In this document: in pieces, positions 5,173 through 42,878 of the stretch | How the letters are laid out: each line of letters begins with the position of its first letter | How positions within the stretch are numbered: the stretch's first letter is position 1 | Assembly (NCBI RefSeq): GCF_902729405.1 | Contig: NZ_LR746496.1 | Coordinates: forward strand, 2,790,001-2,854,000 | DNA from: Acididesulfobacillus acetoxydans | GTDB taxonomy: Bacteria; Bacillota; Desulfitobacteriia; Desulfitobacteriales; Desulfitobacteriaceae | DNA length: 64,000 nucleotides | Direction of reading: 5' to 3' | The notes under the pieces: model-generated | The model's database searches: none | Told to the model about the DNA's origin: nothing | Seen by the model: only the letters and a program-made list of their open reading frames with translations | Position numbers and translations under genes: made by a program

Positions 5173-5423
5173 GGGTCTCACTCCTTCTTCAGTTATCCCG
5201 GAGACAATCAAATAATTGAACAGACCTGTTATGCGTTTTTTCGAAGTCAGTTAATTTCGCGGCGGCACTTTACCAATATCTACGCAGCCTTTGACCGGTT
5301 GAGCCGGTGAAGGCCTAAATTTGTCAGGCAGTTTCGGCGAACTTCGGATGCCATCTGTGATTGAAACCACACTTTGGCAAGATTCGGTTTGATACACTGG
5401 AATCAGCGCCGCTGCAGGAGGAC

Positions 5424-6068
5424 ATGACTAACATGACTGACATGACTATGGAAGAAAACGCCCAAAGCCATATTGCCCAGAATTATATTGTAGTACACTG
5501 CCGGCCGGGCTGTCCCAAGGCTGCCAGGTCTTGGCGGGATTTAAACGAAAGGCTGCGTCCGGCTCTGGAGGGCTTGGCAATCGAGCAGAAGCTCAAGGAA
5601 AAATTTCCGCGAATACTTTACCATCAGGTGCCCAAGATAGGGATTTCCGCTTGCCCGAACGGCTGTTCCCAGCCCCAAATCAGGGACATAGGCGTGATGG
5701 GTTTTGCGAAACCTCGCTTTGAACCGGAATTGTGCACGGATTGCCGGATTTGCGCGGGCGTTTGCCTGGAGAACGTGATCAGCTTCGAGTCCGGCAGCTT
5801 CAGCCTCGACTCCGGGACTTGCCTGGGCTGCGGGGATTGTATCCGCAGCTGCCCATCCGGAGCTTTGAGCGCAGCGGAAAGCGGGTGGAAACTGCTTCAG
5901 GGCGGAAGAGTGGGCAGGCACCCACGCTTCGGCGAGCTGAGCGGACAAGTGGCGACTGATGAGGAGGCACTCTCTTGGATTCTCGCGGTTCTGCGCCAGT
6001 ATTTTGACGACAGCGGACCGGAAGAACGCCTCAGCCATTATTTAGAACATCATCTCATCAAACCCTGA
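5424..6068 (+). CDS. small nitrite/sulfite-reductase-like 4Fe-4S ferredoxin protein
   Basis: The product is about 214 residues. The N-terminal ~110 residues resemble one sirohaem/4Fe-4S half-domain of the nitrite/sulfite reductase family, with a CRPGC motif and GISACPNGCSQPQIRDIG. A 2[4Fe-4S] ferredoxin segment follows (CTDCRICAGVC and CLGCGDCIRSCP). This arrangement is like anaerobic sulfite reductase subunit C or DsrA/B-like small proteins, but with only one half-domain and no ferrite-reductase repeat. It probably transfers electrons or binds sirohaem. The start is one of ATG 5424/5433 behind AGGAGG at 5416. The gene is divergent from a LysR regulator, suggesting substrate-induced control. 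Confidence 0.85.
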   Translation: MTNMTDMTMEENAQSHIAQNYIVVHCRPGCPKAARSWRDLNERLRPALEGLAIEQKLKEKFPRILYHQVPKIGISACPNGCSQPQIRDIGVMGFAKPRFEPELCTDCRICAGVCLENVISFESGSFSLDSGTCLGCGDCIRSCPSGALSAAESGWKLLQGGRVGRHPRFGELSGQVATDEEALSWILAVLRQYFDDSGPEERLSHYLEHHLIKP

Positions 6069-6290: not shown

Positions 6291-7016
6291 TCACAGGGAG
6301 TTTCTCTCGGCCCTGGCACGGATCCAGCCGCTTAGCACGTCCAAATCCGGAATCGTAATCTCTTTTTTCTCAACGTGAATGATTTGGCTTTGCTTCAGTT
6401 CCCCCAGAATACGGCTGACTGATTCCCGGGCCAGGCTGCACATGGCTGCCAATTCGGTGGCCGACAGCGGAATGGAAATCTGTACTCCCGCCGGGGTTTC
6501 CTGCCCGTGGGCATGGGCGAGTGCGAATAATTTAGCTCCCAGGCGCAAGCGGGCGTCACCCAGGGAAAGGTTCTTAATCTGCCGGTAACTCCTGCGCACG
6601 TCTAGAGCCAAACTCCGGTAAAACAGCCAGAGCAAAGCGGGATGGGTTTGCAGGAATTGTTTTAAGGATTCCGTGTCCAGGCTGAGCACGTCACTGTTTT
6701 CCAAAGACAGCGCCGCCTGGGGATACGGTTTGCCGTCGAGGGCGACTTCCGGAAAGAAAGTGGAGGGGCCGAGAACGCGCAGGATCTTCTCACTGAACTC
6801 AGTGGTAAGGAGAAGCTGAATGCGGCCGTTCAACAAGACAAATACGGCGTTGGGGTCATCACCCGAAAAATAAAGATACTGTTTGGCCGCATAACGGTGA
6901 ACTCTGCCGCGTGTCAGCCAGAAATCGAAAAACTCAGAAGGCAGACTTCCCCAGAAGGGGACCTGTTCTAACGTTTGGCGAATTTGGCTTTCGTTAAGGA
7001 CTCCGTGCCCCGACAT
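6291..7016 (-). CDS. Crp/Fnr-family transcriptional regulator
   Basis: The 241-residue protein has an N-terminal cyclic-nucleotide-binding-like beta-roll (~15-130: YLYFSGDDPNAVFVLLNGRI), a dimerisation helix, and a C-terminal HTH_Crp with recognition segment TELAAMCSLARESVSRILGE (~185-204). There is no N-terminal Cys cluster of FNR type, so any oxygen sensing would be indirect. Like CprK or RdhK it may bind a small-molecule effector (inference). GGAGG lies 7 bp before the ATG. The gene is divergent from the molybdopterin oxidoreductase operon across a 487-bp spacer, which makes it the natural candidate regulator of that operon. Confidence 0.92.
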   Translation of the reverse strand: MSGHGVLNESQIRQTLEQVPFWGSLPSEFFDFWLTRGRVHRYAAKQYLYFSGDDPNAVFVLLNGRIQLLLTTEFSEKILRVLGPSTFFPEVALDGKPYPQAALSLENSDVLSLDTESLKQFLQTHPALLWLFYRSLALDVRRSYRQIKNLSLGDARLRLGAKLFALAHAHGQETPAGVQISIPLSATELAAMCSLARESVSRILGELKQSQIIHVEKKEITIPDLDVLSGWIRARAERNSL

Positions 7017-7503
7017 TATTATACCTCCGGCGCTTGTAAGCGATGCTCCTCGGATTTGCCGAGGTTTTCAGTGCAAACTTTGGCTTCTGCCTGCGCCCGA
7101 TCGCTCTGCCGGAGCGACGGTCGTACAAGCGGGTCTTCCCGATTCCGTTTCTGTTACTGTTTTAATTTCTGTTTCTGTTTTAATTCCTACTTTCTATTTC
7201 GTGCTGAGTCCGGAAATTCCTGCCCAGTCCAGGCGGAAGAGCACATCTTTTTGCGGGGTCACCTAAGCAAATAATTGAATGCTTTTTGTTTTTCTTACTC
7301 GTCCAGTCTGGTAAAGACAGGCTTTGCCTACGCATACCCACCCATGGTATAGGGGTAAATCTAAGAAAAATGACAAGTTCTTAACCATATTAAAGCTCCT
7401 TTACGCAGAAAGCGGCAAATGCCCCGATTTGTCATTCGCATAAATTCAAGAAAAACTATATGCTTACTATAATAAAGAAAATGTGTACAAAGGGGGTAGG
7501 GAT
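7017..7503. other. divergent regulatory spacer between the Crp/Fnr gene and the molybdoenzyme operon
   Basis: No gene was found. The spacer holds an 18-bp tandem repeat in a T-rich tract (TGTTACTGTTTTAATTTC at 7152, TGTTTCTGTTTTAATTCC at 7170). It also has a 13-bp palindrome TTAACCATATTAA at 7381-7393, resembling a Crp/Fnr-type box with shortened spacing, and the imperfect FNR-like TTGTCATTCGCATAA at 7429-7443. The downstream promoter is annotated separately. Confidence 0.5.
7445..7473 (+). promoter_or_regulatory. promoter of the molybdopterin oxidoreductase operon
   Basis: A perfect TATAAT lies at 7468-7473 with a poor -35 (TTCAAG, 7445-7450) at 17 bp. A weak -35 with a good -10 is typical of activator-dependent promoters. 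The FNR-like half-palindrome centred about 7436 would sit near position -44. Confidence 0.5.
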
Positions 7504-10173
7504 ATGAGCTCTCAGAAAGAACGCAAAGTTGCGGCCAGACAGACGACCTCTTCCCGCGATGTGGAGTGGGTGCCGAGCATTTGTAATTTTTGCTCAACGG
7601 TCTGCAACGTTCGTGTAGGTGTAAAGACGATTGACGGGAAGAAAACGGCGGTCAAGATCGAAGGAAATGCGAACAGTCCCTTGAACCGGGGCAAGACCTG
7701 TGCCCGCGGTCAGGCGGGCTTGCGCCAGACCTATGATGCTCAACGCCTGACAACCCCCCTGATTCGGGTTCCCGGCTCGAAAAGGGGGGAGTGGAACTTC
7801 CGTCCCGCTTCCTGGGAGGAAGCTTATGGCTACGTCATGCGCAAGCTGGAGGAGTATCAGGTTCAACCGTGGGAGATGAGTATGGTCGGCGGCTGGACTT
7901 CCTGTGTCTTCTATATGCCTTTGGCTTTATCTTTCGTATTTTCCACCGGTATTCCCAATATTGTCGCTTCGCCGATGCAGCAGTGTGTCGCGGCCGGGCA
8001 TTTCGGCAATGACCTAGTCACAGGCAATTTCAACTTTCACGACGAGGTCCTGGCCGATTTCGAAAATGCCAAATATATTATTTTATCGATGACCAACTCC
8101 GGCGTGGCCGCTGCTTCCACCAGCCGTTTAGTCCGTTTTGCCGAAGCCAAAAAACGAGGGGCGAAGGTGGTCGTCCTCGATCCCCGCCTTTCCGAAACGG
8201 CCGCCAAAGCGGACGAATGGCTGCCGATCAAACCCGGTACAGACGGTGCCTTTTTTCTCGCTCTCATTCACGTCATGCTGCGCCAAGGCTTGTATGATGA
8301 AGAGTTCCTCATCAAGCACACGAACATGCCTTTCTTGGCGCTGGAAAATCAAGGGATGGTCGTGCCCCTGACGGAGAGTGACGAACAAGGCTTTCCCACA
8401 TCCTTCCGGGTTCTGGATCGGATCAGCGGCGAAGTGCACCGGCTCCCGGGTTACAGCAACACGAATGCCCTCGATACGGAAGGGAAGAACCTCGTGCCGG
8501 CTCTGGAAGTACCTCAGGGATTTGCGCTTGACGGCAATAAGGCCAAGACGATCTTTCAGTATATGTTGGAACAGACGGCGAAATTCACTCCCGCTTGGGC
8601 TGAACAGGAAACCGGTCTGCCGGCGGCGACCATTGAGCGCATTGCCCTGGAATTCGGCCAAACTCGCCCCGCCTTAGTGGATCCGGGTTGGCATGGCGCC
8701 CGTTACGAAAACATTCTCAACACCCGGAGGCTGCAGTCTGTCCTCCAAGCTCTGGTGGGTGGATTTGACACACCGGGAGGCTGGCTGATGTCCGGGGAAT
8801 ATCACGAAAAACTGTTGGCTTTCCTCAAAGCCAGGCAAGAGGGGAAAGAAGTCCCGGTTCTGAGTCTGCCCGGCTTGCAGTTTCCCCTGACGGCCGCGGG
8901 AAAGTTCTTTAACCCAGCCGAATGGTCCCATGGTCACCCTTCTTTTGCCATGGCCAAATCGATTGCTGATAAAGCGGAGGGCAAACCCGGTGTTATTTTC
9001 CCGGCCTTTTCTGATTACGGTTTGGAGGAGGCGGTGGAAGGGAAGCTCATGTTCAACGGGGAGCCCTATCGAATCAAGGCCCTTTTGATGAATGCCGCCA
9101 ATCCTGTGCGCCATTTCTATCCGGATACTCGTTGGAAAAACATCCTCACCCATCCCAACATGGGTCTCGTCGTGGCTATTGATATTGTTCCATCCGATAC
9201 GGCGGCTTATGCCGATGTAATCCTGCCCAATCAAAATTATATTGAGCGAGACGAGCCGTTCCTTTACGGCGCCGGTCCCGCCACAGATCTCGCTCTCACG
9301 ACCCGGTTCAGTGCCGTGGAGCCTCAGCCGGAGACTAAGGGCACCGCTGACATCCTGTTCGAGTTTGCTGTCGGTTTCGGTGCCCTGGACAAATTCATGG
9401 AGACGATTTCCGCTTTCACAGGCTATGACTTGGCCGAAATTAAGGAGGAGGTCGGCAAGGCGACTAAAGGTGAACAAACCTTCACCCAAGCGATTCGCCG
9501 CGTATCGTTCAAACATCACGCCCGGGCGCTCGGACAGAGTCCGGAGCAACTGGAGAAGACTCTGCGCGAAAAAGGTGTCCTGGTGGTGGAGTCCAAAGAG
9601 AAACTAATGGAACACGCAGCGATCTGCCGGTGTCTCCCCGTCCCGACCCCGTCCGGCCGCATCGAAATCTACTCTCTTCTTTTGGCCGGGTTTGTCCGGC
9701 AGGAGGGCTACCGGATCAACTGGGACCCGGGGTTGGTCTATATGCCGCCTCAATTGAATCAGGAAAAGAAGCCGGATGAGTTTTTCTTCACGTACGGGAA
9801 AACGCCGACCGTTTCCTACGCCTCGACCAATTCCAACAACCCCATTCTCATGGCCTTGTCCAAAGCCAAAGAGGACGAATTCATGGGGCTGTGGATTAAC
9901 CCCCAAAGAGCGAGCCTCTTGAACATTATGACCGGCGACACAGTGACCGTGGAAAACTGTCTCAGCGGGCAAAGCGTCCGGATTAATGCTTTTGTCACGG
10001 AAATGATCCGGCCGGATACGGTGTTCATGTCCTCTTCCTTCGGCACGGAAAATCCCTTGCTCAAGTACAGTTCAGGTGTAGGTACGGCTCTCAACCGGCT
10101 CGTTCCCTATCAAGTCGAGCCGATCGTCAGTGCTTTCAAGACCCAGGAATTCACCGTACGCGTTACGAAGTAA
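7504..10173 (+). CDS. molybdopterin oxidoreductase catalytic subunit (CISM/DMSO-reductase superfamily)
   Basis: The product is about 889 residues. It has an N-terminal [4Fe-4S] motif (CNFCSTVC...GKTCARG, ~25-70), the molybdopterin core with probable Mo-ligand Cys in SPMQQCVAAG, pterin-binding LDPRLSETAAKADEWLPIKPGTDG, DVILPNQNYIERDEP, and a C-terminal molydop-binding domain (WINPQRASLLNIMTGDTV). The overall type is PsrA/PhsA/thiosulfate-polysulfide reductase, but the substrate cannot be told. The start is ATG 7504 behind AAAGGGGGTAGGG. The N-terminus has no twin-arginine signal, so the enzyme should be cytoplasmic, unlike most PsrA relatives. It begins an operon with an FeS subunit and an NrfD-like anchor. 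Confidence 0.93.
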   Translation: MSSQKERKVAARQTTSSRDVEWVPSICNFCSTVCNVRVGVKTIDGKKTAVKIEGNANSPLNRGKTCARGQAGLRQTYDAQRLTTPLIRVPGSKRGEWNFRPASWEEAYGYVMRKLEEYQVQPWEMSMVGGWTSCVFYMPLALSFVFSTGIPNIVASPMQQCVAAGHFGNDLVTGNFNFHDEVLADFENAKYIILSMTNSGVAAASTSRLVRFAEAKKRGAKVVVLDPRLSETAAKADEWLPIKPGTDGAFFLALIHVMLRQGLYDEEFLIKHTNMPFLALENQGMVVPLTESDEQGFPTSFRVLDRISGEVHRLPGYSNTNALDTEGKNLVPALEVPQGFALDGNKAKTIFQYMLEQTAKFTPAWAEQETGLPAATIERIALEFGQTRPALVDPGWHGARYENILNTRRLQSVLQALVGGFDTPGGWLMSGEYHEKLLAFLKARQEGKEVPVLSLPGLQFPLTAAGKFFNPAEWSHGHPSFAMAKSIADKAEGKPGVIFPAFSDYGLEEAVEGKLMFNGEPYRIKALLMNAANPVRHFYPDTRWKNILTHPNMGLVVAIDIVPSDTAAYADVILPNQNYIERDEPFLYGAGPATDLALTTRFSAVEPQPETKGTADILFEFAVGFGALDKFMETISAFTGYDLAEIKEEVGKATKGEQTFTQAIRRVSFKHHARALGQSPEQLEKTLREKGVLVVESKEKLMEHAAICRCLPVPTPSGRIEIYSLLLAGFVRQEGYRINWDPGLVYMPPQLNQEKKPDEFFFTYGKTPTVSYASTNSNNPILMALSKAKEDEFMGLWINPQRASLLNIMTGDTVTVENCLSGQSVRINAFVTEMIRPDTVFMSSSFGTENPLLKYSSGVGTALNRLVPYQVEPIVSAFKTQEFTVRVTK

Positions 10174-10192
10174 GGGAAAGGGGGAAAAGAGC

Positions 10193-10789
10193 ATGTCACG
10201 TTATGGCATGGTGATCGATTTGCGCTCCTGTGTCGGCTGTCAGGCCTGCAGCGCAGCCTGTGCCCTGGAAAATCAGACACCCTATTGGTCTAACAAATGG
10301 CGGACCAAAGTGATGGATATACAGAAAGGCGAGTATCCCAGTACCGGCCGCTATTTCGTTCCCACGATTTGCATGCACTGTGAGGAGCCGGCCTGTATGA
10401 CTGTCTGCCCGTCCAAAGCGACTTTTAAAAGTGACGAAGGTTTCGTTTTGGTCAATTATGACACTTGCTTGGGTTGCAAGGCCTGCATGGCCGCCTGTCC
10501 TTACGGTGCCCGCTACGTCTACGACAAGAAAGACGTAGCCCAGGAAAAAGAAGTTTACGGTGAGGTGAGCCAGCATAAAAAAGTGCACGTGGATAAGTGC
10601 ACGCTTTGCCAAGACCGCGTCAGCCGCGGCCTGGAACCGGCCTGTGTCGCAACCTGCCCCACGCTTTCGCGCCAGTTTGGCGACCTGGATGATCCCACAA
10701 GTACGGTAGGCAAAGCGGTCTCCAGCGGGCTGGCCAAACCTTTGCGCCCGGATTTGGGGACCAAGCCGCGCGTCTATTATATCTATTGA
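10193..10789 (+). CDS. four-cluster 4Fe-4S electron-transfer subunit (DmsB/PsrB-like)
   Basis: The product is about 198 residues with sixteen cysteines in the classic order: CVGCQACSAAC, CMHCEEPACMTVCP, CLGCKACMAACPYG and CTLCQDRVSRGLEPACVATCP. These bind four [4Fe-4S] clusters relaying electrons between the membrane quinone site and the molybdenum subunit. The ATG at 10193 follows GGGGGAAAAGAGC, 20 bp after the catalytic gene. A longer in-frame start at 10130 overlaps the upstream gene and is rejected. Neighbours give a PsrABC-type three-subunit complex. Confidence 0.95.
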   Translation: MSRYGMVIDLRSCVGCQACSAACALENQTPYWSNKWRTKVMDIQKGEYPSTGRYFVPTICMHCEEPACMTVCPSKATFKSDEGFVLVNYDTCLGCKACMAACPYGARYVYDKKDVAQEKEVYGEVSQHKKVHVDKCTLCQDRVSRGLEPACVATCPTLSRQFGDLDDPTSTVGKAVSSGLAKPLRPDLGTKPRVYYIY

Positions 10790-10854: not shown

Positions 10855-11742
10855 ATGGCCCAGCCTATGCATGTTGAACGGCAAGAAGCCTATGAGTGGC
10901 CGGTGTCCGTCTATTTGTTCTTCGGCGGTTTGGGGGGAGCCCTCATGGCCCTGGCTTTCATCTTTCACTTCTTTGCGGCGACCCAAGTGATGATTCCCCT
11001 GACCGTGGTCTCTGCTCTGGTCTTGTTTGCTCTGGCCGGTGCCTTTCTGGTCTTCTTTGACCTGGAGAGGCCAATCAACGCGGTTTTTTCCTTAAATAAT
11101 TTCACCAAGTCAGGAGTCTCCTGGGACGTCATTCTCATCGGTTTTAATTATGTGGCCGGAATCCTGTTCGTCCTGCCTCAATTTGCCTATGTCCCGGTTC
11201 TCAGCGGAATCAGCCAGGCTCTGACTCCTTACCAGGTCTTCTTCGGTGCCATAGCCGCGCTGGCGGGGTTCTTGTTCCCGATCATTTCGGGCGGGCTCTT
11301 GGCGGCCCCCGCTTCCATTCCCCTCTGGCATACCCCGGCTTTGCCTTTGCTCTTTCTGATTACGAGCTTTGAATTGGCCCTGGCTTTTCTCGGCAGCCTC
11401 TTTCCCGTCTCAGGCACGCTCTACACCGTGTTCGCCGGGGGCATTTTCGCCTTTTCACTCCTGGCCTTCGGGATTTCCCTGGCCTACCTTGAGCATACGC
11501 ATAACGGCCCCGTGGAAGCCACGGAGGGAATGCACCGCATGTTAAAAACCCCCCGTTTTCTTCTGCTCTATCCGCTCGTCGGCCTGCTTTTCCCGCTCGT
11601 GCTCAGCGCTTACCTCGTTTTCGGCGGTTTAGAGAGCACCTGGGCCATGCTGGCACTGACGGTGGCCCTCTTCCTGGGTGGCTTCGCCCTGCGCAACTGC
11701 CTGATCCTCAACGGCATTGAGACCTATCCCTGGCCGTATTAG
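10855..11742 (+). CDS. NrfD/PsrC-family membrane anchor subunit
   Basis: The product is 295 residues with about eight hydrophobic membrane spans, e.g. WPVSVYLFFGGLGGALMALA, SGVSWDVILIGFNYVAGILF and PLLFLITSFELALAFLGSLF. NrfD/PsrC proteins carry a menaquinone site and dock the FeS subunit. AAGGAGGGATTGATCT precedes the ATG. It is the third gene of the molybdoenzyme operon and is followed by a strong terminator, so the complex is transcribed as abc. Confidence 0.92.
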   Translation: MAQPMHVERQEAYEWPVSVYLFFGGLGGALMALAFIFHFFAATQVMIPLTVVSALVLFALAGAFLVFFDLERPINAVFSLNNFTKSGVSWDVILIGFNYVAGILFVLPQFAYVPVLSGISQALTPYQVFFGAIAALAGFLFPIISGGLLAAPASIPLWHTPALPLLFLITSFELALAFLGSLFPVSGTLYTVFAGGIFAFSLLAFGISLAYLEHTHNGPVEATEGMHRMLKTPRFLLLYPLVGLLFPLVLSAYLVFGGLESTWAMLALTVALFLGGFALRNCLILNGIETYPWPY

Positions 11743-11962: not shown

Positions 11963-12562
11963 ATGCCCCAGCAAACGGCCTACGGTTGTCTCTATTGTCA
12001 GACGGCGGCGAGTTTCAAAGGGGACACGGCCCGTATGCCCAAAACCTGTCCGACGCTCACTCATGAAGAGATCGCGAAGGACATTCAGGGCTACCGGGAG
12101 GAACCCTTAAAGACACTGATGCAGAAGGCCGATCGGACTCCTTTTACGCCGGACGGAGTCTTGCGCAACCGGGTGGAGGAACTCATCTTCTTCGCTCAGG
12201 AGATGGGATACCACAAGATCGGCATCGCTTTTTGTGTCACGCTCATGCCGGAGGCGCAGACCTTGGCTAAACTCTTGCGAGAGGAGGGTCTGGAAGCGAT
12301 CCCCGTCTGTTGTCGGGTGGGCGCCGTTGATTACAGCGAAATCGACTTGCCCAAAGCTCACCCGGAGCGCTTCGCGGCCATTTGTAACCCGGTGGCCCAG
12401 GCTAAACTGCTCAACCTGGCGCAGTGTGACCTGGTCGTGCAAGTGGGGCTGTGCCTGGGTCACGATATCATTTTACAGCAAACATGTCAGGCACCCGTCA
12501 CGACCCTGGTGGTCAAAGACCGAGTTCTGGACCACAACCCGGTGCGGGCCTTGCGCGGATAA
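11963..12562 (+). CDS. DUF1847 (metal-binding) protein
   Basis: The product is 199 residues and rich in cysteines, with YGCLYCQTAASF at the N-terminus, FCVTLMPEA, VCCRVGAVDYSEI, CNPVAQAKLLN, VQVGLCLGHDI and PVTTLVVKDRVLDHNPV. This is the conserved pattern of DUF1847, a predicted metal-binding family common in anaerobes with molybdoenzymes. No reaction is known. The start ATG 11963 has TTGGAGTGG upstream; an in-frame TTG at 11939 is less likely. It sits alone between the molybdoenzyme operon and a MoeA-like gene, which suggests a role in cofactor handling (inference). Confidence 0.85.
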   Translation: MPQQTAYGCLYCQTAASFKGDTARMPKTCPTLTHEEIAKDIQGYREEPLKTLMQKADRTPFTPDGVLRNRVEELIFFAQEMGYHKIGIAFCVTLMPEAQTLAKLLREEGLEAIPVCCRVGAVDYSEIDLPKAHPERFAAICNPVAQAKLLNLAQCDLVVQVGLCLGHDIILQQTCQAPVTTLVVKDRVLDHNPVRALRG

Positions 12563-12914
12563 AGCGAAGCGTTGCCCGGCGCGCCGCGGACCATTCCCGC
12601 GGCCCGTTGGAGATACGGCGGCACCGCTGTGAGCCTGCCGTGCGGGTAACAGATGACCCGCTGCGGACTATTTTTCGAGACAGACCCCGATGACCGCTGC
12701 GCAGCGCCTGTAGAGGGCGAATCGCGCAGACCGCGCGACTCCGTAAGGCGGCAGAAAACGTTTCCCCGGGCATGCGTGCAGAGACACGCGGATTCCGAGC
12801 CCCGCTTCCTAAAGGTCTCCAAACCCATGGAACAGGGCCGTTTCAGAGATGAAACCGGGGTTTGCTTAGAAATGAGCACACCTTCCGAACCAGAAAAGGA
12901 GGCTATACCCAGCT
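12563..12914 (+). other. 352-bp leader/spacer with a nested hairpin upstream of the MoeA-like gene
   Basis: No gene was recognised. AAACCC (12821-12826) pairs with GGGTTT (12858-12863), and inside it GTTTC (12840-12844) pairs with GAAAC (12851-12855), giving a two-tier hairpin about 50 bp before the start codon. No T-run follows, so it is not a standard terminator. A Moco riboswitch was considered but could not be confirmed by eye. Confidence 0.4.
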
Positions 12915-13937
12915 ATGCAAAAAATTCGAGTAGAAGATGCCGTCGGTTCCGTTCTCCTTCACGATTTGACCCAAATTCTCCCGGGTGAGAGCAAAGGACC
13001 GCGTTTCAAGAAAGGACATATCGTGCGGGAGGAAGACATTCCCGTCCTCCTCAGCATGGGCAAGGAAAACCTTTATGTCTGGGACCGGACGGAAGGGCTC
13101 GTCCATGAAAATGAGGCCGCCGAGCGGCTGGCCCGGGCGGTAACCGGACCCGGGCTGCATTTGAGTGAGCCCAGCGAGGGAAAAATCACCCTTACGGCCG
13201 AGTATTCCGGGTTGCTGTATGTGGCGGAAGAGGCGGTTTATGACTTAAATTCGTTGGAGTATATCGTCCTGGCCACCCTGCACAGTCACCGCCCCGTGGA
13301 AAAAGGGGCTAAAGTGGCGGGGACGAGGGTAGTGCCCCTGATGATTGAGGAAAACATTTTAGCGGAAGCAGAACGAGTAGCTCAGTCTCATAACGGCCCG
13401 ATTTTGGAGGTGAAAGCGCTGCGTTCCTGGAAAGTGGGTGTCGTCACGACCGGGAGCGAAGTCTATCACGGCCGGATCAAGGACAAATTCGGCCCGGTGG
13501 TCCGGGCCAAGATCGAAGGCTGGGGTTCGACGGTAATAGGCCAAAGCTTTGCCGACGACGACATTCCTATGATCCAGGGACGCATTCGCGAACACCTGGA
13601 TAAAGGCGCGGAAATGGTTCTGGTAACCGGCGGCATGTCGGTCGATCCGGATGATGTGACACCTACGGCCATCCGGGAGCTGGGCGGAGAATTGGTCACC
13701 TACGGTTCTCCTGTTCTCCCCGGGGCCATGTTCTTGCTGGCTTATTTGGGCGATATTCCCATCATGGGGCTGCCCGGCTGTGTCATGTATTCCAAAACGA
13801 CGGTCTTCGACCTTGTGGCACCTCGGGTCTTGGCCGGAGAACACCTGACTAAGCGCGATATTGCCAAGCTCGGTCACGGCGGGCTCTGCCTGGAGTGCAA
13901 AGTCTGCACTTATCCTCACTGCCCGTTCGGAAAGTGA
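12915..13937 (+). CDS. MoeA/MogA-like molybdopterin-binding protein
   Basis: The product is 340 residues. The N-terminal region resembles MoeA (MQKIRVEDAVGSVLLHDLTQI, FKKGHIVREEDIPVLLSMGK). A MoCF_biosynth (MogA-fold) domain occupies ~170-320 with VGVVTTGSEVYHGRIKDKF, VLVTGGMSVDPDDVTPTAIR and GLPGCVMYSKTTVFDLV. It lacks the full four-domain length of MoeA (~400), fitting the shorter molybdopterin-binding group. The C-terminus ends with four Cys in CLECKVCTYPHCPFGK, a possible metal site. It may insert or transfer Mo for the upstream oxidoreductase (inference). AAAAGGAGG precedes the ATG. Confidence 0.88.
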   Translation: MQKIRVEDAVGSVLLHDLTQILPGESKGPRFKKGHIVREEDIPVLLSMGKENLYVWDRTEGLVHENEAAERLARAVTGPGLHLSEPSEGKITLTAEYSGLLYVAEEAVYDLNSLEYIVLATLHSHRPVEKGAKVAGTRVVPLMIEENILAEAERVAQSHNGPILEVKALRSWKVGVVTTGSEVYHGRIKDKFGPVVRAKIEGWGSTVIGQSFADDDIPMIQGRIREHLDKGAEMVLVTGGMSVDPDDVTPTAIRELGGELVTYGSPVLPGAMFLLAYLGDIPIMGLPGCVMYSKTTVFDLVAPRVLAGEHLTKRDIAKLGHGGLCLECKVCTYPHCPFGK

Positions 13938-13987
13938 ATTTTACAAAATCCGAACAGGATGTAGTATATCCAGGTCGAACTTCTACT

Positions 13988-14602
13988 CTAAGCCATATGC
14001 GACACTTTAGCGGCTTTGAGGAGGACATGGCCGGGCGCGAGCGGTTGGAACCAGATGTTACCGAAACCGGCGGCTTCGAGGAGAGAACTCCACTCTTGCG
14101 CAGACTTACGGTCAGCCAACGGAGGACCCATGGGGGTCTCCTTTTTTTGCCATTCGATAATCCAAATCCGGCCCCCGGCTGAGAGAATCCGCCACGCTTC
14201 CCGCAGGTAGGCCAACGGATCCCCAAGCTCGTGCAAGACGCCCGCAATCAGGACAATCGCTACGGATTCCGCCGGCAGGGGAACGCTTTCGTCTTCAGCC
14301 TGATGAATATGGATCCGCTCTCTGACCTGCCGTTCCTCTGCTCGGGCCGCCAAAACCTTCAGCCGTTCCGGCTCTACATCCACAGCCTCGATCTTTCCCC
14401 GGGGGCCCACCATCTCCGCGGCCCTGAGGGCAAAGAAACCGAAACCGCAGCCCAGGTCCGCCAGGGAATCGCCCGGCTTGAGGCCGAAATGCTCGAGGAT
14501 CTGCCGGGAGGGAAGGAGTTTCTCTCTCTCGGCAAAGTTCATCAAATGGTTAGAATTATGGTGCTCATGGCTGTCCACGTGATCGTGGCTGTTTACAGGC
14601 AC
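13988..14602 (-). CDS. class I SAM-dependent methyltransferase (UbiE/COQ5-like)
   Basis: The product is 204 residues. SAM motif I is LADLGCGFGFFALRAAE (~47-63), motif II is KIEAVDVEPERL, and the post-I region is ESVAIVLIAGVLHEL. The Methyltransf_11/UbiE fold is clear; the substrate is not. The N-terminus is His-rich (HDHVDSHEHHNSNHLMNF), a possible metal-binding tag, and a second Met lies at residue 21. It is convergent with the MoeA-like gene. Confidence 0.88.
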   Translation of the reverse strand: MPVNSHDHVDSHEHHNSNHLMNFAEREKLLPSRQILEHFGLKPGDSLADLGCGFGFFALRAAEMVGPRGKIEAVDVEPERLKVLAARAEERQVRERIHIHQAEDESVPLPAESVAIVLIAGVLHELGDPLAYLREAWRILSAGGRIWIIEWQKKETPMGPPLADRKSAQEWSSLLEAAGFGNIWFQPLAPGHVLLKAAKVSHMA

Positions 14603-14731
14603 TGTAAAAACCTCCCAATGTCTAATCTCTCAGGTAATATCTCATTGTCAGATATCTTTTGCCCTGAAACACGAGCCCGCTCTGAATGGGGCCGTGCCGA
14701 AGATGCGACCGTGCACTTTCAACAGGCTTTA

Positions 14732-16057
14732 TCACCTGAGCAGTGCCCCGGCGATGAGGTGAAGGTCCTGCACCGTCCGGCAGCGGTACACGGCCCGGCA
14801 ATAGGGGCGATAAGATGGCAGGGCATTGTCTCTGGCCAGCCATTCCTCTGGATTGAGGGGGTTGAGCCAGAGAATGCTGCGCACGTTCTGTTCAATCTCC
14901 GCTAAGTACTCAGCTTGAGCGGGCCGGAAATTATTCCTGCCGTCGCCGAGGATGAGGAGAGTGGAAAGCGCGGAGATCTCAGGCAAAACGTTTTCCGCCA
15001 GCTGCCGGAAAACCCGGCCGTAATCCGAAAAACCGGAACTGGCCTTCCCGGACCAGGATTGGATAGCCGGGGAGAGATCCTGTAAATCGTCATCCCAGAT
15101 CTCGGCGGGAACATCCCACAAAGTGTCTATAAAGAAAAAGAGACGGACGCGACGGAAGTTGGCGCGCAGGCGAGCCACCAAGAAAAGCAGAAACTCGGCG
15201 TAAGGCGCCACAGAGTTGGACACATCACAGAGAACGACAAGTTCCGGGATCCGAGGGAGCCTGCGGCGGTAATGCAGATGAAAAGCGCGGCCGTCATTGC
15301 GGGAAGCTTCGCGTACTGTTGCCCGGAGATCGAGGGCGCCCCGGCGGGTCGGGGAAAAACGCCAGCCCGGCCTGACCGCCAGCCTGCGGCCCCACTGGCG
15401 GATGGCCGTTTGCACCAGGCTTCTTTCCTCGGCCGTGAGTCCCAGAAGGGGTTTATGCTGCCAGGATTCCCGGTGCAGAGACTCCCAGCTGTTGTCCAGT
15501 TCAATGTTTCGGATTTTCAGTTCCCGGCGCAGAGCCTCTGCCAGGGATTCCAGGTGGTTCCTGGCTTCCTCGAAGTCGTCGGCGGTCGTTTGCCCCCGGC
15601 TGAAGGCCAGTTCCTGAGCGTTGAGCCAGGTGTGGGCCCCCGCTTCTCCGAGAAGCTGTCTAACCGTCTCTTCCAGGGCTACCTCGGGCACGGTCCGGTC
15701 CCAGCCTGCCAGAAGGGCGCGTACCTTCGCAAAAGAAGGCCGGCCGGCCTGGAGACTGACCCCGCCACTGCCCCGGCCCTGCCCCAGCTCACCGGGGCCT
15801 GAGGCTTGAGCCGGAGCCGAGCCCGGATTTCCTTTTCTTTCCTCGGCCAGGGGAGCCCGGTTAAAGACGGCTTGCCAAACCAGTTCGAAAGCGTTCATCT
15901 CCTGAGGCCTATGAATCAGGGTAGCCCGCAGCACCTGTTTCTCGGGTAAGTGCGGAAAACGCCGCAGCGCCTTGAGCGCCTCGCCGAGATCCTGAGTTGA
16001 GACGGGAACGACATAACGGAGGGCGCTTGTGAAGACGAGAAAGTGCCAACCGTCCAT
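14732..16057 (-). CDS. VWA-domain protein (CoxE-like)
   Basis: The product is 441 residues. The N-terminal half is helical with a Gly/Ser-rich linker (~95-130). The C-terminal half is a VWA/CoxE domain with MIDAS sequence VVLCDVSNSVAPY (DxSxS) and LLILGDGRNN. The start chosen is ATG 16057, one base after the stop of the MoxR gene; the longer frame upstream only overlaps that gene. In cox (CO dehydrogenase) clusters CoxD (MoxR) and CoxE (VWA) help mature the Mo enzyme. The pair here may act as a metal-insertion or assembly chaperone for the nearby molybdoenzyme (inference). Confidence 0.88.
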   Translation of the reverse strand: MDGWHFLVFTSALRYVVPVSTQDLGEALKALRRFPHLPEKQVLRATLIHRPQEMNAFELVWQAVFNRAPLAEERKGNPGSAPAQASGPGELGQGRGSGGVSLQAGRPSFAKVRALLAGWDRTVPEVALEETVRQLLGEAGAHTWLNAQELAFSRGQTTADDFEEARNHLESLAEALRRELKIRNIELDNSWESLHRESWQHKPLLGLTAEERSLVQTAIRQWGRRLAVRPGWRFSPTRRGALDLRATVREASRNDGRAFHLHYRRRLPRIPELVVLCDVSNSVAPYAEFLLFLVARLRANFRRVRLFFFIDTLWDVPAEIWDDDLQDLSPAIQSWSGKASSGFSDYGRVFRQLAENVLPEISALSTLLILGDGRNNFRPAQAEYLAEIEQNVRSILWLNPLNPEEWLARDNALPSYRPYCRAVYRCRTVQDLHLIAGALLR

Positions 16058-16058
16058 C

Positions 16059-16943
16059 TCACTGAACCTCGGCCGCGCGCGCAGCTTCCGTTTGCCATTG
16101 TTGCAGGCGTTCCTCCAGCTTGGCCAGATCTTTGGGATATTTGAGCAAGACGGCCAGGGTGCCGGGTAATTGGTCGAGCGCAAGTTGTTGCCGTTGCAGG
16201 GCATGCAGAGCTCGGGCAAAATCGAGGCTTTCCGAAACGCTGGGCAGTTTGCGCAGAGGGAGCTTGCGCACTTTGGCCACAAATTCCGCTACATCGTCTA
16301 ACAGGCTTTGAGCAATTTCGGGACATTGCCGGCGCAAGATGGCCACTTCCCGCTCCAAAGTAGGATATGACAGATTGAGATTGACACAGCGCCGCCGCAA
16401 AGCATCACTGAAATCCCGGGCATTGTTGCTGGTCAGGATGACGACCGGCTTGTGTTCTGCCCTTATCGTGCCCAGTTCCGGAATAGTTACTTGAAATTCC
16501 GCCAATAATTCCAGCAGGAAGCTTTCAAATTCTTCATCACTTTTGTCAAGTTCGTCGATGAGCAGCAATACGGGTTCAGAGGCCCGAATCGCCTGTAACA
16601 AAGGGCGCGCCAAGAGAAATTCCGCTCCGAACAGATCCGTCTTAATCGCATCCCAATTTTCCGTTTTCCCTGCCTGGAGGCGCAATAACTGTTTGGCGTA
16701 ATCCCAATCGTATAAGGCCTTAGCCGTATCCAACCCCTCGTAGCACTGAAGCCTGAGCAGACGCCTGCCCGCTGCTCTGGCCAAAGCCAGGGCCAGTTGA
16801 GTTTTGCCGACCCCGGCCGGACCCTCTATCAGGCAGGGCTTTTCCAGGGCCAAGGCCAGAAAGAGCGTCGTCGCCGGCTCTTCATCCAACAAGTAGCCTT
16901 CGTCGGCCAAGGCCTCGAGCAATGCCGCTGGTGAATCCCACAT
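16059..16943 (-). CDS. MoxR/CoxD-type AAA ATPase
   Basis: The product is 294 residues. Walker A is IEGPAGVGKTQLALALA (~37-53), Walker B is VLLLIDELDKSDEEF (~120), sensor 1 is VVILTSNNARDFSDALRRRC, and the C-terminal lid is helical. The start ATG 16943 has GGGGAGG 8 bp upstream; an in-frame start 14 codons earlier has none. The stop is one base from the start of the VWA gene, so the two are translationally coupled. MoxR ATPases act with VWA partners as chaperones that insert cofactors. Confidence 0.92.
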   Translation of the reverse strand: MWDSPAALLEALADEGYLLDEEPATTLFLALALEKPCLIEGPAGVGKTQLALALARAAGRRLLRLQCYEGLDTAKALYDWDYAKQLLRLQAGKTENWDAIKTDLFGAEFLLARPLLQAIRASEPVLLLIDELDKSDEEFESFLLELLAEFQVTIPELGTIRAEHKPVVILTSNNARDFSDALRRRCVNLNLSYPTLEREVAILRRQCPEIAQSLLDDVAEFVAKVRKLPLRKLPSVSESLDFARALHALQRQQLALDQLPGTLAVLLKYPKDLAKLEERLQQWQTEAARAAEVQ

Positions 16944-17189
16944 TTTGCTAACCTCCCCGGCAACCTTATCCTGTGGCGATACCAAGATTTTGCTGTGACT
17001 TCCCCGATTAAGTTCACTTGGGCCTGGGAATCATGTATCCATTGCCTAAGACTCCCGCTTCTTATTTTAGCATTGACCGGGCACAGAACCAAGCGCTCCA
17101 TAAAGCAGCCTTTTCCGGCTCACGGCGTCCGCATAGACCGGCGAGAGGGGGGGAAAATAGGTTCATCCCAAGCAAAAAAGGAGGCCAAT

Positions 17190-17315: not shown

Positions 17316-17604
17316 GGGGAGAGGGGAGTGTGAGCGACTGTTCATACTCCCCAAAATCACCTCACCGCCTTCGGCGAAGTGGAACACGGCATAAGGAAAT
17401 TGACGCAGGGGGTTATCATGCATGTTGTTGTCTTCTCCCAGCGGGGAAATATTCACCCCCAAATTGAGCAAAGATCAGAGATGGGTTAACACTGTAAACC
17501 GGTAGGAAAACAAAAGGACCTCGGTGAAAAGTATACGCTAAGAAGCCGCTTATTTCCAGTCCGGAGGGTGCTTGTGAATATCTTCATCTTCAGTGTGCTT
17601 GCAG

Positions 17605-18044: not shown

Positions 18045-19430
18045 ATGGCCTTGCATCGTCGCAGAACCAAAAAGGACGAGGAAGAATTTGAAGACATCTA
18101 TACTGATCCGGTGTCTCTGATGCAACTCCCCAAAAGCAAGCTGCCGGAAGACGCTTCTAATCCTCGGGTAATAAAGCAATTAATCCGTGATGAACTCTTC
18201 ATGGATGGAAATGCCCGGCAGAACTTGGCGACCTTTTGCACTACATATATTGAAGACGAAGTCCGGGAGCTTATGGATTTGTCAATTGACAAAAACATGA
18301 TAGACAAAGATGAATATCCCCAAACGGCCGAAATTGAACAACGCTGCGTAAACATCTTGGCAAACCTTTGGCACGCACCGGACAAGAAAGGCACCATCGG
18401 CTGCTCGACAACGGGATCCAGTGAAGCGGCCATGCTGGGCGGCTTGGCTCTCAAATGGCAGTGGCGCAAGCGGCGTGAGGCAGAGGGAAAACCCACGCAT
18501 AATCCTAATTTTGTCTGCGGGCCGGTCCAGATATGCTGGCACAAATTTGCGCGTTACTTTGATGTCGAGATCAGAGAAGTTCCTTTGAAGCCCGGTGAGT
18601 TGGGTATGCGGCCCGATCAGCTAAGAGATTATTGTGATGAGAACACGATTGGCGTCGTGGCGACTTTGGGCAGCACATTTACGGGGATTTACGAACCTGT
18701 GCGGGAGTTGGCGGAAGCCCTTGATGTGATTGAGAATGAAAGGGGCTGGGATATTCCCATTCATGTGGATGGGGCCAGCGGGGCTTTTATTGCGCCTTTT
18801 ATCCAAAAGGATCTCAAGTGGGACTTTAGCATTCCCAGAGTTAAATCCATTAACGCTTCGGGTCACAAATTTGGCATGGCTCCCTTGGGTGTCGGTTGGG
18901 TGATTTGGAGAAGTCTAGCCGATTTGCCCGAGGAATTGGTCTTTAACGTGGACTATTTGGGGGGACAAATGCCGACCTTTGCTTTGAATTTCTCCAGACC
19001 GGCCGGGCAGATCATCGCTCAGTACTATAAGTTCTTGCGCTTGGGCCGTGAGGGCTACACCGCCATTCAGCACGACTGTGCCCGTAGCGCCCAATACTTG
19101 GGCGAGCAGCTGAAAGGAATAGATAGGCTGGAAATATTGTATGACGGTCACGGCGGTATACCGGCAGTTTGTTATACTCTCAGAGATGAAAAGGCAACGG
19201 AATTTTCCCTGTATGATCTTTCGGAGCGTTTAAGAATGCGCGGCTGGCAGATCGCTTCCTACCCGCTCCCGGCCGAGCGGCAGAATACAACTGTCCAACG
19301 CATCTTGATCCGTCACGGGGTCAGTCGCGACATGGTATCCCTGCTCCTGAGTGATTTGCGCAGGGAATTGGAACATCTGCAGAGTAACTCCGTGGTGAGT
19401 TCGGGCGACAGGATTGGTTTCCATCACTAG
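18045..19430 (+). CDS. gadB: glutamate decarboxylase
   Basis: The 461-residue PLP enzyme converts glutamate to GABA and CO2 and consumes a cytoplasmic proton. Family motifs are present: GTIGCSTTGSSEAAMLGGLA, PIHVDGASGAFIAPF, and SINASGHKFGMAPLGVGW, in which the Lys of SGHKFG forms the PLP Schiff base. The length agrees with E. coli GadA/B (466). The C-terminal ~25 residues end RIGFHH; in E. coli the C-terminal His closes the active site at neutral pH, and a His lies near this end too. No glutamate/GABA antiporter gene is beside it. It suggests acid stress exposure. Confidence 0.95.
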   Translation: MALHRRRTKKDEEEFEDIYTDPVSLMQLPKSKLPEDASNPRVIKQLIRDELFMDGNARQNLATFCTTYIEDEVRELMDLSIDKNMIDKDEYPQTAEIEQRCVNILANLWHAPDKKGTIGCSTTGSSEAAMLGGLALKWQWRKRREAEGKPTHNPNFVCGPVQICWHKFARYFDVEIREVPLKPGELGMRPDQLRDYCDENTIGVVATLGSTFTGIYEPVRELAEALDVIENERGWDIPIHVDGASGAFIAPFIQKDLKWDFSIPRVKSINASGHKFGMAPLGVGWVIWRSLADLPEELVFNVDYLGGQMPTFALNFSRPAGQIIAQYYKFLRLGREGYTAIQHDCARSAQYLGEQLKGIDRLEILYDGHGGIPAVCYTLRDEKATEFSLYDLSERLRMRGWQIASYPLPAERQNTTVQRILIRHGVSRDMVSLLLSDLRRELEHLQSNSVVSSGDRIGFHH

Positions 19431-40117: not shown

Positions 40118-41128
40118 ATGACCATCAGAGTGGCAATCAATGGCTTCGGCCGCATCGGCAGACTGACTTTAAGGGCGGCGTTAAAAAAGGAGACTCCCCT
40201 GGAGTTTGTGGCCGTCAATGATTTGGGCAGCCCGGACCTTCTCGCCCATCTCTTTAAGTATGACTCTGTTCACGGTATTCTGGAGGATGACGTTAAAGTC
40301 GACGGCAGCAACATGATCGTCAACGGCAAGACGGTGAAAATCCTGGCGGAAAAAGATCCGGCTAAACTGCCCTGGAAAGAGCTGGGCGTCGATATTGTGA
40401 TCGAGTCCACCGGCAGGTTCACCAAAAGAGAAGGTGCGAGCCAGCACCTGGCCGCGGGCGCGAAAAAAGTCATCATCTCCGCCCCGGCTAAGGAAGAAGA
40501 CATCACGATTGTCATGGGGGTCAACGAAGAGAAATACAACCCCAAAGAGCACCATATCCTTTCCAACGCTTCCTGTACAACCAACTGTCTGTCCCCTGTG
40601 GCGAAAGTCCTGCTGGAAGAGTATGGTATTGAGTATGGTATGATGACCACGACTCACTCCGTCACAAACGATCAGCGTATTCTGGACCTGGAACACAAGG
40701 ACTGGCGTCGGGCGCGCGCCGCTTACCAATCCATGATTCCCACGACCACCGGAGCCGCCAAAGCCGTCGCCTTGGTGCTGCCGGAATTGAAAGGCCGTCT
40801 GAACGGCTTGGCCGTCCGCGTGCCGACCCCGAATGTGTCCTTGGTGGACTTGGTGGCCATTTTGAAAAAATCCACTACCGCGGAAGAAGTGAATGCCAAA
40901 TTCCGGGAAGCTGCGGCGGGTAAGCTCAAAGGGTATCTGGAATATACGGACCTTCCGCTCGTATCCCATGATTTCAACGGCAACCAAGCGAGTTCGATCG
41001 TGGACGGCCTCTCCACCATTATGCTGGGAGATAAAATGGTGAAGGTCCTGGCCTGGTATGACAATGAATGGGGCTATTCCAACCGGGTGGTCGACCTTGC
41101 GGCCTACGTGGCGGAACGGGGACTTTAA
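40118..41128 (+). CDS. gap: glyceraldehyde-3-phosphate dehydrogenase, type I
   Basis: The product is 336 residues. NAD-binding [18 protein letters not shown] is N-terminal, the catalytic Cys lies in [16 protein letters not shown] (~150), and [15 protein letters not shown] is C-terminal. It is a glycolytic/gluconeogenic enzyme. AAGGAGG precedes the ATG by 11 bp. The pyruvate kinase gene follows after 13 bp; the usual pgk-tpi neighbours are absent. Confidence 0.97.
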
Positions 41129-41141
41129 ACCCGGGGAGGGT

Positions 41142-42878
41142 ATGATGAGAAGGACGAAGATCGTTTGTACGATAGGACCGGCCAGCGAATCAACCGCCAA
41201 AGTGCAGGAACTCTTGGCGGCCGGTATGGATGTGGCCCGCTTGAATTTTTCCCACGGCACCCATGAGGAACACGGTGCGCGCATTGCCGTCCTCAAAGAA
41301 GCAGCGGAAAAAATCGGGAAGCACCTAGCCTTAATCCTGGACACCAAAGGACCGGAAATCCGCACGGGCATCGTTCCCGATCCGGGTGTGGAGTTGGTCG
41401 ACGGCTCCGGCTATGTGCTGGATACGAATCTGACTCAGGCAGGGAATGCGGAAAGAGTAGGAATTACTTATACCAACCTTTGGCGTGAAGTCAAAGCAGG
41501 GGAACACATCTTAATTGATGACGGACAATTGGACTTGGAGGTCGTCAGTGCGCAAGATTCCGTCATCAAAACTGTCATACGCCACGGCGGCATCTTGAAG
41601 TCCCAAAAAGGAGTCAATGTTCCGGAGAGTCCCATTGAACTGCCGGCGGTTACGGAACGGGATATTGACGACATCCGCTTCGGCATCGAGCAGGGGGTTG
41701 ACTTTATCGCGGCCTCCTTCACCCGCAAAGCCGAGGACATTTTTGCCGTGCGGCGCATTTTGGAAGACAACGGGGCTCCAATCAAGATCATCGCCAAGAT
41801 CGAAAGCCGGGAAGGGATCAAAAACCTGGATGCCATTTTGGAAGCCGCCGACGGGCTTATGGTGGCCAGGGGGGATTTGGGCGTCGAGATTCCGGTAGAA
41901 GAAGTCCCGCTTTATCAGAAAGAAATGATTCACAAATGCAACCTGCAGGGCAAGCCGGTCATTGTCGCGACGCAAATGCTGGATTCGATGATCCGTCAGC
42001 CCCGGCCAACCCGGGCCGAGGCCAGCGACGTCGCCAACGCCATCCTGGACGGCGCGGACGCCGTTATGCTTTCGGGTGAGACCGCTGCCGGGCGTTTTCC
42101 CGTTGAAGCCGTGCGAATGATGGATAAGATAGCCCGCAAAACGGAAGGAGCGCACTGGCAAAACCGTTCCAGCCGGCATCCTCAACTCAATGTAGCCGAA
42201 GCCATCAGCTATGCCAGCTACACCATTGCCGAGGATCTGGAGGCAGCCGCTATTCTCACACCCACCCAATCGGGTTTAACCCCGCGCATGATTTCCAAAT
42301 ACCGGCCCAAAGCCGTGGTTCTGGGGGCCACGCCTTTCCCCAGGGTAGCCCGTCAACTCAGTTTGCAATGGGGAGTCTATCCTTTGCTCGTAAGCCAGAG
42401 TTCCGGAACCGACCAACTTTTGTCTATTTCCCTGAACGCCGCTATGGAGAAAAATTGGGTCCGCAGCGGAGATGTCGTTGTGGTCACGGCCGGAGTTCCG
42501 GTCGGGAAGGCTGGGACGACAAACATGGTGAAAGTGCAGGTCGTAGGCAATGTCTTGGCCAAAGGGGTTGGTTTGGGGCGCAAAGCCTATTCCGCCAAGG
42601 CTCGCCTTGTGGTTGATCCGCAGGATGATTTCGCTGACGGGGAAATTCTGGTGACCAAGATGACTGACGCCACTTTGATTCCTTTGATTGCCAAAGCGGG
42701 AGCCGTGGTAGTGGAAGAAGGAGGCCTCACTTCACACGCCGCGATAGCCGCCCTGCAGTATGGGATACCGGCCATCGTCGGGGCCAAAGGCATCTTGCGA
42801 GCCGTCAAATCGGGGGAACCTTTGACGGTGGATGCCTTAGCCGGAGTGGTCTATGAAGGAACCGTCAGTATTTTGTAG
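41142..42878 (+). CDS. pyk: pyruvate kinase with C-terminal PEP-utilising domain
   Basis: The product is about 578 residues. The (beta/alpha)8 barrel has KIVCTIGPASESTAKVQELL, DTKGPEIRTG, signature IIAKIESREGIKNLD and MVARGDLGVEIP. The last ~100 residues are the PEP-utiliser swivelling domain (GEILVTKMTDATLIPL, EGGLTSHAAIAALQYGIPAI), as in Bacillus Pyk. It makes ATP and pyruvate from PEP. Tandem ATGs at 41142 and 41145 sit just after GGGGAGGG, and the second has better spacing. Coupled to gap. Confidence 0.97.
   Translation: MMRRTKIVCTIGPASESTAKVQELLAAGMDVARLNFSHGTHEEHGARIAVLKEAAEKIGKHLALILDTKGPEIRTGIVPDPGVELVDGSGYVLDTNLTQAGNAERVGITYTNLWREVKAGEHILIDDGQLDLEVVSAQDSVIKTVIRHGGILKSQKGVNVPESPIELPAVTERDIDDIRFGIEQGVDFIAASFTRKAEDIFAVRRILEDNGAPIKIIAKIESREGIKNLDAILEAADGLMVARGDLGVEIPVEEVPLYQKEMIHKCNLQGKPVIVATQMLDSMIRQPRPTRAEASDVANAILDGADAVMLSGETAAGRFPVEAVRMMDKIARKTEGAHWQNRSSRHPQLNVAEAISYASYTIAEDLEAAAILTPTQSGLTPRMISKYRPKAVVLGATPFPRVARQLSLQWGVYPLLVSQSSGTDQLLSISLNAAMEKNWVRSGDVVVVTAGVPVGKAGTTNMVKVQVVGNVLAKGVGLGRKAYSAKARLVVDPQDDFADGEILVTKMTDATLIPLIAKAGAVVVEEGGLTSHAAIAALQYGIPAIVGAKGILRAVKSGEPLTVDALAGVVYEGTVSIL

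Follow-up and report, generated by a model that had tools for sequence, protein, structure and literature searches.

The 64,000 nucleotides of Acididesulfobacillus acetoxydans DNA analyzed here, referred to as the window throughout, contain an operon for a complex iron-sulfur molybdoenzyme (CISM) and, directly beyond it, five genes that a first-pass annotation had read as a possible molybdoenzyme maturation neighbourhood: a Cys-rich DUF1847 protein, a short MoeA-like protein with a four-Cys tail, a methyltransferase with a His-rich N-terminus, and a coupled MoxR/VWA pair. Are these genes parts of a single system, with the MoxR-VWA pair serving the CISM? Or do they merely stand next to each other? 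Across genomes the modules occur independently of one another, and the stretch is probably a set of separate modules side by side and not one maturation system.

As for the gene content, the open reading frame (ORF) listing and the Pfam scans bore out the initial description: all five genes are present, in the order given (Table 1). The DUF1847 protein matches PF08901 (146.9 bits vs a cut-off of 25, E 4.7e-43) and contains 10 Cys, counted by reading. The MoeA-like protein has 340 aa, with a MoCF domain and the four-Cys tail CLECKVCTYPHC, while the methyltransferase carries six His within its first 19 residues. This His-rich start is kept in both close orthologs found among the loci compared, L037 (from CEB3, a genus-mate) and L039 (Paradesulfitobacterium).

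Within the pair, MoxR exceeds the cut-offs of PF07728 (40.2 vs 22 bits) and PF00004 (46.4 vs 21.2 bits), narrowly misses that of PF07726 (26.8 vs 27 bits), and has a Walker A motif, GPAGVGKT, and an acidic Walker B, both read by eye. Its partner reaches 102.8 bits (cut-off 26.4) with PF05762, the Pfam VWA_CoxE family, and its MIDAS motif is DVSNS by alignment; no solved relative was found at E 0.01. The 516-aa ORF of this protein is inflated by a TTG start: by alignment, homologs start at ATG 16057, which gives 441 aa. A single base separates that ATG from the MoxR stop, as the proposed coupling of the two genes implied. The pairing is general: all 45 MoxR ORFs examined in 41 loci, among them paralogs, have a VWA gene no more than two ORFs away on the same strand.

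The oxidoreductase is a CISM in that catalytic, iron-sulfur and NrfD genes lie together on a single strand, and the best solved match of its catalytic subunit is 2vpw, a "thiosulfate reductase". The genes for the methyltransferase, VWA and MoxR, all on the minus strand, converge on the plus-strand CISM/DUF1847/MoeA-like run, with 50 bp between the stop codons of the MoeA-like and methyltransferase genes; given the convergent strands, the region should comprise at least two transcription units. Neither promoter-like sites, no commoner than in shuffles (5 vs 4.8), nor terminator-like sites, commoner than in shuffles (24 vs 14.7, sd 3.9), were used for drawing operons.

Table 1. Features of the window discussed in the text (half-SirFeS, half sulfite/nitrite-reductase protein)
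Feature	Position	Strand	Basis
DUF1847 protein, Cys-rich	11963 (ATG)..12562; longest ORF from TTG 11939	+	PF08901
MoeA-like protein: MoCF domain, N-terminal half without Pfam match, CX2CX2CX4C tail	12915..13937	+	PF00994 only
Class I methyltransferase, His-rich N-terminus	13988..14602	-	PF01209, PF08241
VWA (CoxE-like) protein, 441 aa from ATG 16057	14732..16057	-	PF05762; start and MIDAS DxSxS by alignment
MoxR-class AAA+ ATPase	16059..16985	-	AAA families; MadB model below cut-off
CISM catalytic subunit (molybdopterin oxidoreductase)	7483..10173	+	PF00384, PF04879, PF01568 above cut-offs
CISM iron-sulfur subunit	10130..10789	+	PF13247, other Fer4 families
CISM NrfD membrane subunit	10855..11742	+	PF03916
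Half-SirFeS: half sulfite/nitrite-reductase 4Fe-4S domain plus ferredoxin, syntenic with the MoxR block	5361..6068	+	PF01077, PF12838
Crp/Fnr regulator (Crp), syntenic with the MoxR block	6291..7016	-	PF13545, PF00027
23-residue remnant, start of a 745-aa regulator of the CEB3 genome (L037)	17355..17423	-	tblastn 78%, E 4.6e-7

In the CEB3 genome the regulator gene of the last row (L037:11983-14217, sigma-54-type by eye) stands upstream of MoxR, and the window keeps only the remnant. Elsewhere in the window, at 1515-2133, two overlapping short minus-strand ORFs look toxin-antitoxin-like by eye.

Linkage of the genes in other genomes

Linkage was assessed in 45 genomes of the same family as presence on a single contig within 15 kb, with orthologs called at ≥64% identity for MoxR, E 1e-60 for the MoeA-like protein, E 1e-150 for the CISM catalytic subunit and ≥75% identity for DUF1847; the CISM was searched both in these genomes and in the named genome collection. 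MoxR orthologs occur in 38 of the 45 genomes (one of them in two pieces) and the MoeA-like protein in 40, the CISM catalytic subunit in 6 and a close DUF1847 ortholog in 4. All six CISM genomes also carry a MoxR ortholog, and the two are linked in five of the six; the same fraction, 5/6, holds for the CISM and the MoeA-like gene. Seen from the side of MoxR, the CISM is unlinked in 33 of 38 genomes, 32 of which lack a match at the cut-off, although in one of these 32, G042, a short contig carries a CISM C-terminus. MoxR and the MoeA-like gene are linked in 9 of the 37 genomes having both, DUF1847 and the MoeA-like gene in 4/4, and MoxR and DUF1847 in 3/4. The short contig of G042 (3.9 kb) holds the CISM C-terminus, the iron-sulfur and NrfD genes, DUF1847 and the MoeA-like gene; its MoxR is on a separate contig, which ends at the VWA gene.

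Individual loci show how the modules come apart. In genera g2 (three genomes read) and g3 (one), MoxR, VWA, MoeA-like, Crp and half-SirFeS genes occur with no CISM genes in between, and G002, G003 and G005 retain these five genes with the CISM absent. The reverse is found in G006, where the CISM operon (at 1,106,004) and the MoxR block (near 1,495,000) are ~390 kb apart, and in the metagenome-assembled genome (MAG) SKS1.bin126 (L140), where the CISM operon adjoins genes read by eye as nad genes and no MoxR, VWA or MoeA-like match falls within the 20 kb examined. Ten loci of genus g4 and one of g7 have the pair without an adjoining MoeA-like or CISM gene, its g4 neighbours including a DEAD helicase, a metallo-beta-lactamase-fold protein and a phospholipase-D-type enzyme. 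Five named genomes have the CISM (CEB3, a Desulfosporosinus MAG, two Bacillota MAGs and Paradesulfitobacterium ferrireducens), four of them with the MoxR block. Among 20 family MoxR loci, the window excluded, the CISM is found in 4 and cbiD/cbiET/cbiF also in 4; because cobalamin linkage is as conserved as CISM linkage, ordinary synteny between close genera is indicated.

Some further neighbours were recorded. A gene for a DUF1638 protein (L097:7606-8253) precedes the CISM operon of G006, with no MoxR block nearby. Upstream of MoxR and divergent from it, 7 of the 20 family loci (L038, L039, L040, L041, L046, L050, L051) have a small NifX-like gene (PF02579, one member scanned), a protein without a match in the window. 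A LysR gene considered as travelling with the CISM was dropped, at 35% identity in G006.

Beyond the family, 299 phylum genomes were searched for MoxR, and 17 loci were chosen from among the higher-scoring matches. IMP dehydrogenase stands beside MoxR-VWA in 13 of the 17 (noted for L102-L116), often with cobalamin genes or feoB; overall, cobalamin genes are present in 9, feoB in 5, and the CISM, MoeA-like and DUF1847 clusters in none. A midpoint-rooted tree of 45 MoxR groups the other-family proteins with that of the window and sets a 7-member paralog clade apart (100/100). MoeA-like and MoxR matches within 15 kb of each other appear only in G000 and G006 in the phylum tables, read by eye. The linkage expected of a dedicated CISM maturation neighbourhood is found, in sum, in 5/38 MoxR-bearing family genomes and 0/17 other-family loci. 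Contexts such as these speak for a function common to many CISM-less genomes and against one tied to the CISM.

The MoeA-like protein has connections of its own. It is found in 107 of the 299 phylum genomes at E 1e-40, and 49 homologs were compared, 9 from MoxR-linked loci (window included) and 40 from chosen family and phylum loci: Cys325, 328, 331 and 336 are invariant in all 49, as are G239, G240, S242 and D247. Within six ORFs, molybdenum-cofactor biosynthesis clusters accompany it in 22 of the 40 loci (the MoeA cluster itself in 16) and xanthine-dehydrogenase-group clusters in 18, leaving 5 with neither kind. The labels come from scanning a single member of each cluster, which confirmed MoeA, MobA-like, MobB, MoaA, MoCoBD and XdhC; for n07 and n17 Pfam returned nothing, n25 is Fe-S/NAD-binding, and n20 and n26 are unscanned. 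The protein is molybdenum-linked, it is not a MoeA, and it is not tied to the window CISM. Neither its N-terminal half nor its tail was matched in comparisons with Pfam and the PDB, and the structure predicted from an alignment of 5 rows, being poor (mean pLDDT 49.9), was not used.

As for DUF1847, 64 of the 299 phylum genomes have a PF08901 match above the cut-off (67 with weaker matches), and the 20 loci read contain no MoeA-like, MoxR or CISM gene, although in one, L126, the DUF1847 ORF itself was not picked. Generic ABC ATPases occur in 9 of the 20, and no other neighbour cluster is common to more than three. Only in genera g1 and g8 does DUF1847 lie directly beside the MoeA-like gene, but the picture is blurred by G149, where the two, by eye, share a contig at a distance of ~12 kb. 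Corrinoid-type genes, recognized by eye only, are near DUF1847 in L117, L118 and L120. No paper on DUF1847 was found in the literature.

The nitrate-induced cluster

Another line of evidence comes from expression. An NrfD-containing molybdopterin oxidoreductase cluster, DEACI_2560-2564, is reported to rise ~13-fold with nitrate (PMC10949509). Is this the CISM of the window? The tags given there for DsrAB, NarG, DEACI_1836, NorBC and AsrC are collinear with their genome matches (987-1109 bases per tag, r 0.9995), and the window PF00384 match is the only one in the genome within ~330 kb of the place expected from the tags. The genome as a whole is rich in molybdoenzymes: ten matches to MoCoBD_1 and eleven to PF00384 exceed the cut-offs. 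In addition, DEACI_2571 is described as glutamate decarboxylase and 2591-2592 are listed among the Embden-Meyerhof enzymes (PMC8982180); the window encodes a pyridoxal-dependent decarboxylase (18045-19430) and, at 40118-42878, glyceraldehyde-3-phosphate dehydrogenase followed by pyruvate kinase. We infer, from a close correspondence, that the window is strain INE with these DEACI tags.

A five-tag cluster that should hold the catalytic, iron-sulfur and NrfD genes therefore reaches the MoeA-like gene at most. With the glutamate decarboxylase as 2571, the methyltransferase, VWA and MoxR genes consequently fall within 2565-2570, outside the reported cluster. The simplest tag count, which allows for a single small gene separating MoxR from the decarboxylase, gives a cluster of half-SirFeS, Crp, CISM, iron-sulfur and NrfD genes; two other assignments are possible, ending at DUF1847 or at the MoeA-like gene. 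The co-expression with the oxidoreductase that had been put forward as a check finds, for the pair, no echo in the published cluster, which ends before MoxR and VWA.

One maturation system or separate modules?

Taken together, these observations make separate modules the likely reading. One module would be the CISM-FeS-NrfD oxidoreductase operon, nitrate-induced in the strain if the tag mapping is right. The other would be the MoxR-VWA pair, which, if it resembles NorQ-NorD, would act as a remodelling chaperone on its own. Couples of this kind are described as remodelling a client so that metal can be inserted, while a finger of the VWA protein sits in the ring pore (PMC9976466, PMC13036017); the window MoxR may likewise form a hexameric ring, plugged by the VWA finger and acting through the VWA protein on a client that would not specifically be the window CISM. 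The MoeA-like protein would be a general molybdenum-cofactor-associated protein of the lineage, and DUF1847 and the methyltransferase presumably optional neighbours.

Several observations weigh against this reading. The whole run stays together in five genomes of three genera, and MoxR, VWA, MoeA-like, Crp and half-SirFeS genes are found together in five genera (9/37 genomes), which could mean a shared role. In g6 and g8, MoxR, the MoeA-like protein and the CISM are 75-85% identical to those of the window, the VWA protein just 47-49%. As to sampling, the 17 phylum loci are few, score-picked and partly related, and in CISM-rich genomes 20 of up to 119 CISM candidates were scored. Lastly, the expression passages of PMC10949509 do not call MoxR/VWA unchanged with nitrate.

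What other explanations are there? The MoeA-like gene may be part of the CISM operon, and so may DUF1847 in two genera. That both are true operon members in these genera, helping to supply cofactor independently of MoxR-VWA, is a tentative possibility that is compatible with separate modules. The five genes from the CISM catalytic subunit to the MoeA-like protein run in a row on the same strand, the close DUF1847 ortholog sits beside the MoeA-like gene and the CISM operon in 4/4 genomes (in G042, with the CISM C-terminus only), and one of the three assignments of DEACI_2560-2564 comprises exactly this run. However, gaps of ~200 and ~350 bp interrupt it, in G038 and G039 the CISM lacks a neighbouring DUF1847, the MoeA-like protein is far commoner in the family than the CISM (40 vs 6 of 45 genomes), and the most economical tag count excludes both genes.

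It is unlikely that the pair, the MoeA-like protein, Crp and half-SirFeS form one unit for some Mo or Fe-S protein, with the CISM a later arrival or lost in places, an idea partly compatible with separate modules. In its favour, the block persists in nine genomes from five genera, whether or not the CISM is there, and the NifX-like gene lies near MoxR in 7 of 20 family loci; but no g4 genome has the pair and the MoeA-like gene linked, no such linkage was seen outside the family (17 loci; phylum tables by eye), and synteny alone may account for the block.

We regard as quite unlikely, though again compatible with separate modules, that the pair acts in trans on an enzyme of the xanthine oxidase family, the known client class of CoxD/CoxE: the genome has the ten MoCoBD_1 (PF02738) matches noted above, but none lies in the window and the nearest to MoxR, at genome 2,924,025, is ~117 kb off.

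The first-pass annotation had suggested a MoxR-VWA pair dedicated to maturation of the CISM, as CoxD/CoxE are for CO dehydrogenase, where they act on the Mo-Cu-S site (PMC4240915). This now appears very unlikely. The pair does adjoin the CISM in the five genomes already mentioned, but it is absent from the surroundings of two CISM loci, it is transcribed convergently to the CISM, and the nitrate-induced cluster stops short of it. Since the genes are scattered in related genomes, even if the whole run is conserved in a few, and the pair is linked elsewhere to unrelated genes, the claim is left unsupported. What survives of the maturation neighbourhood is a MoeA-like protein of a molybdenum-linked family, with a close DUF1847 ortholog beside it wherever one was found in the family. 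Finally, a scenario for a few Desulfitobacterium-related genera, in which the four-Cys MoeA-like protein passes finished cofactor to a client opened by the MoxR-VWA ring and the CISM has been recruited as that client, is most improbable.

Were the CISM a client, this would be a MoxR-VWA system serving an enzyme of the DMSO reductase family; among the paper titles and abstract openings examined, none links the two. The more general lesson is that local synteny can produce a convincing-looking maturation neighbourhood. The questions accordingly shift: what is the client of the phylum's MoxR-VWA pair, so often beside IMP dehydrogenase and cobalamin genes? And what does the four-Cys MoeA-like family do, widespread and molybdenum-linked as it is?

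Comparison with known systems

The CISM shares its catalytic, iron-sulfur and NrfD subunits with PhsA/PsrA-type reductases that have an NrfD subunit, and falls below the PhsA equivalog cut-off (320 vs 694 bits). The MoeA-like protein has the MoCF domain in common with MoeA, scoring 31-38 bits to solved MoeA chains. However, the MoeA of L070 has MoeA_N, MoCF and MoeA_C, whereas the window protein matches PF00994 alone (80.4 bits), with no match to MoeA_N or MoeA_C, and it differs further in its other N-terminal half and its invariant CX2CX2CX4C tail.

For the pair, MadB-MadC (NF047784, NF047783) are the best NCBIfam matches of both proteins, at scores well under the cut-offs (MoxR 296.3 vs 475 bits, VWA 109.9 vs 600 bits); no paper combining three of MadB, MadC, MoxR and VWA was found. 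CoxD-CoxE of aerobic CO dehydrogenase consist of the same two protein classes, and the window VWA protein matches VWA_CoxE. Unlike them, the window pair has no linked Mo hydroxylase, judged by PF02738 in the window, and stands beside a DMSO-reductase-family enzyme in some genomes only. NorQ-NorD differ in their surroundings, as no nitric oxide reductase adjoins the window pair and the sole COX1-family match is ~270 kb away. Their arrangement, however, is the same: a MoxR-class ATPase gene followed directly by a VWA gene with the MIDAS motif DxSxS, and NorQ is one of the 7 solved sequences matched by the window MoxR (E 2.6e-4).

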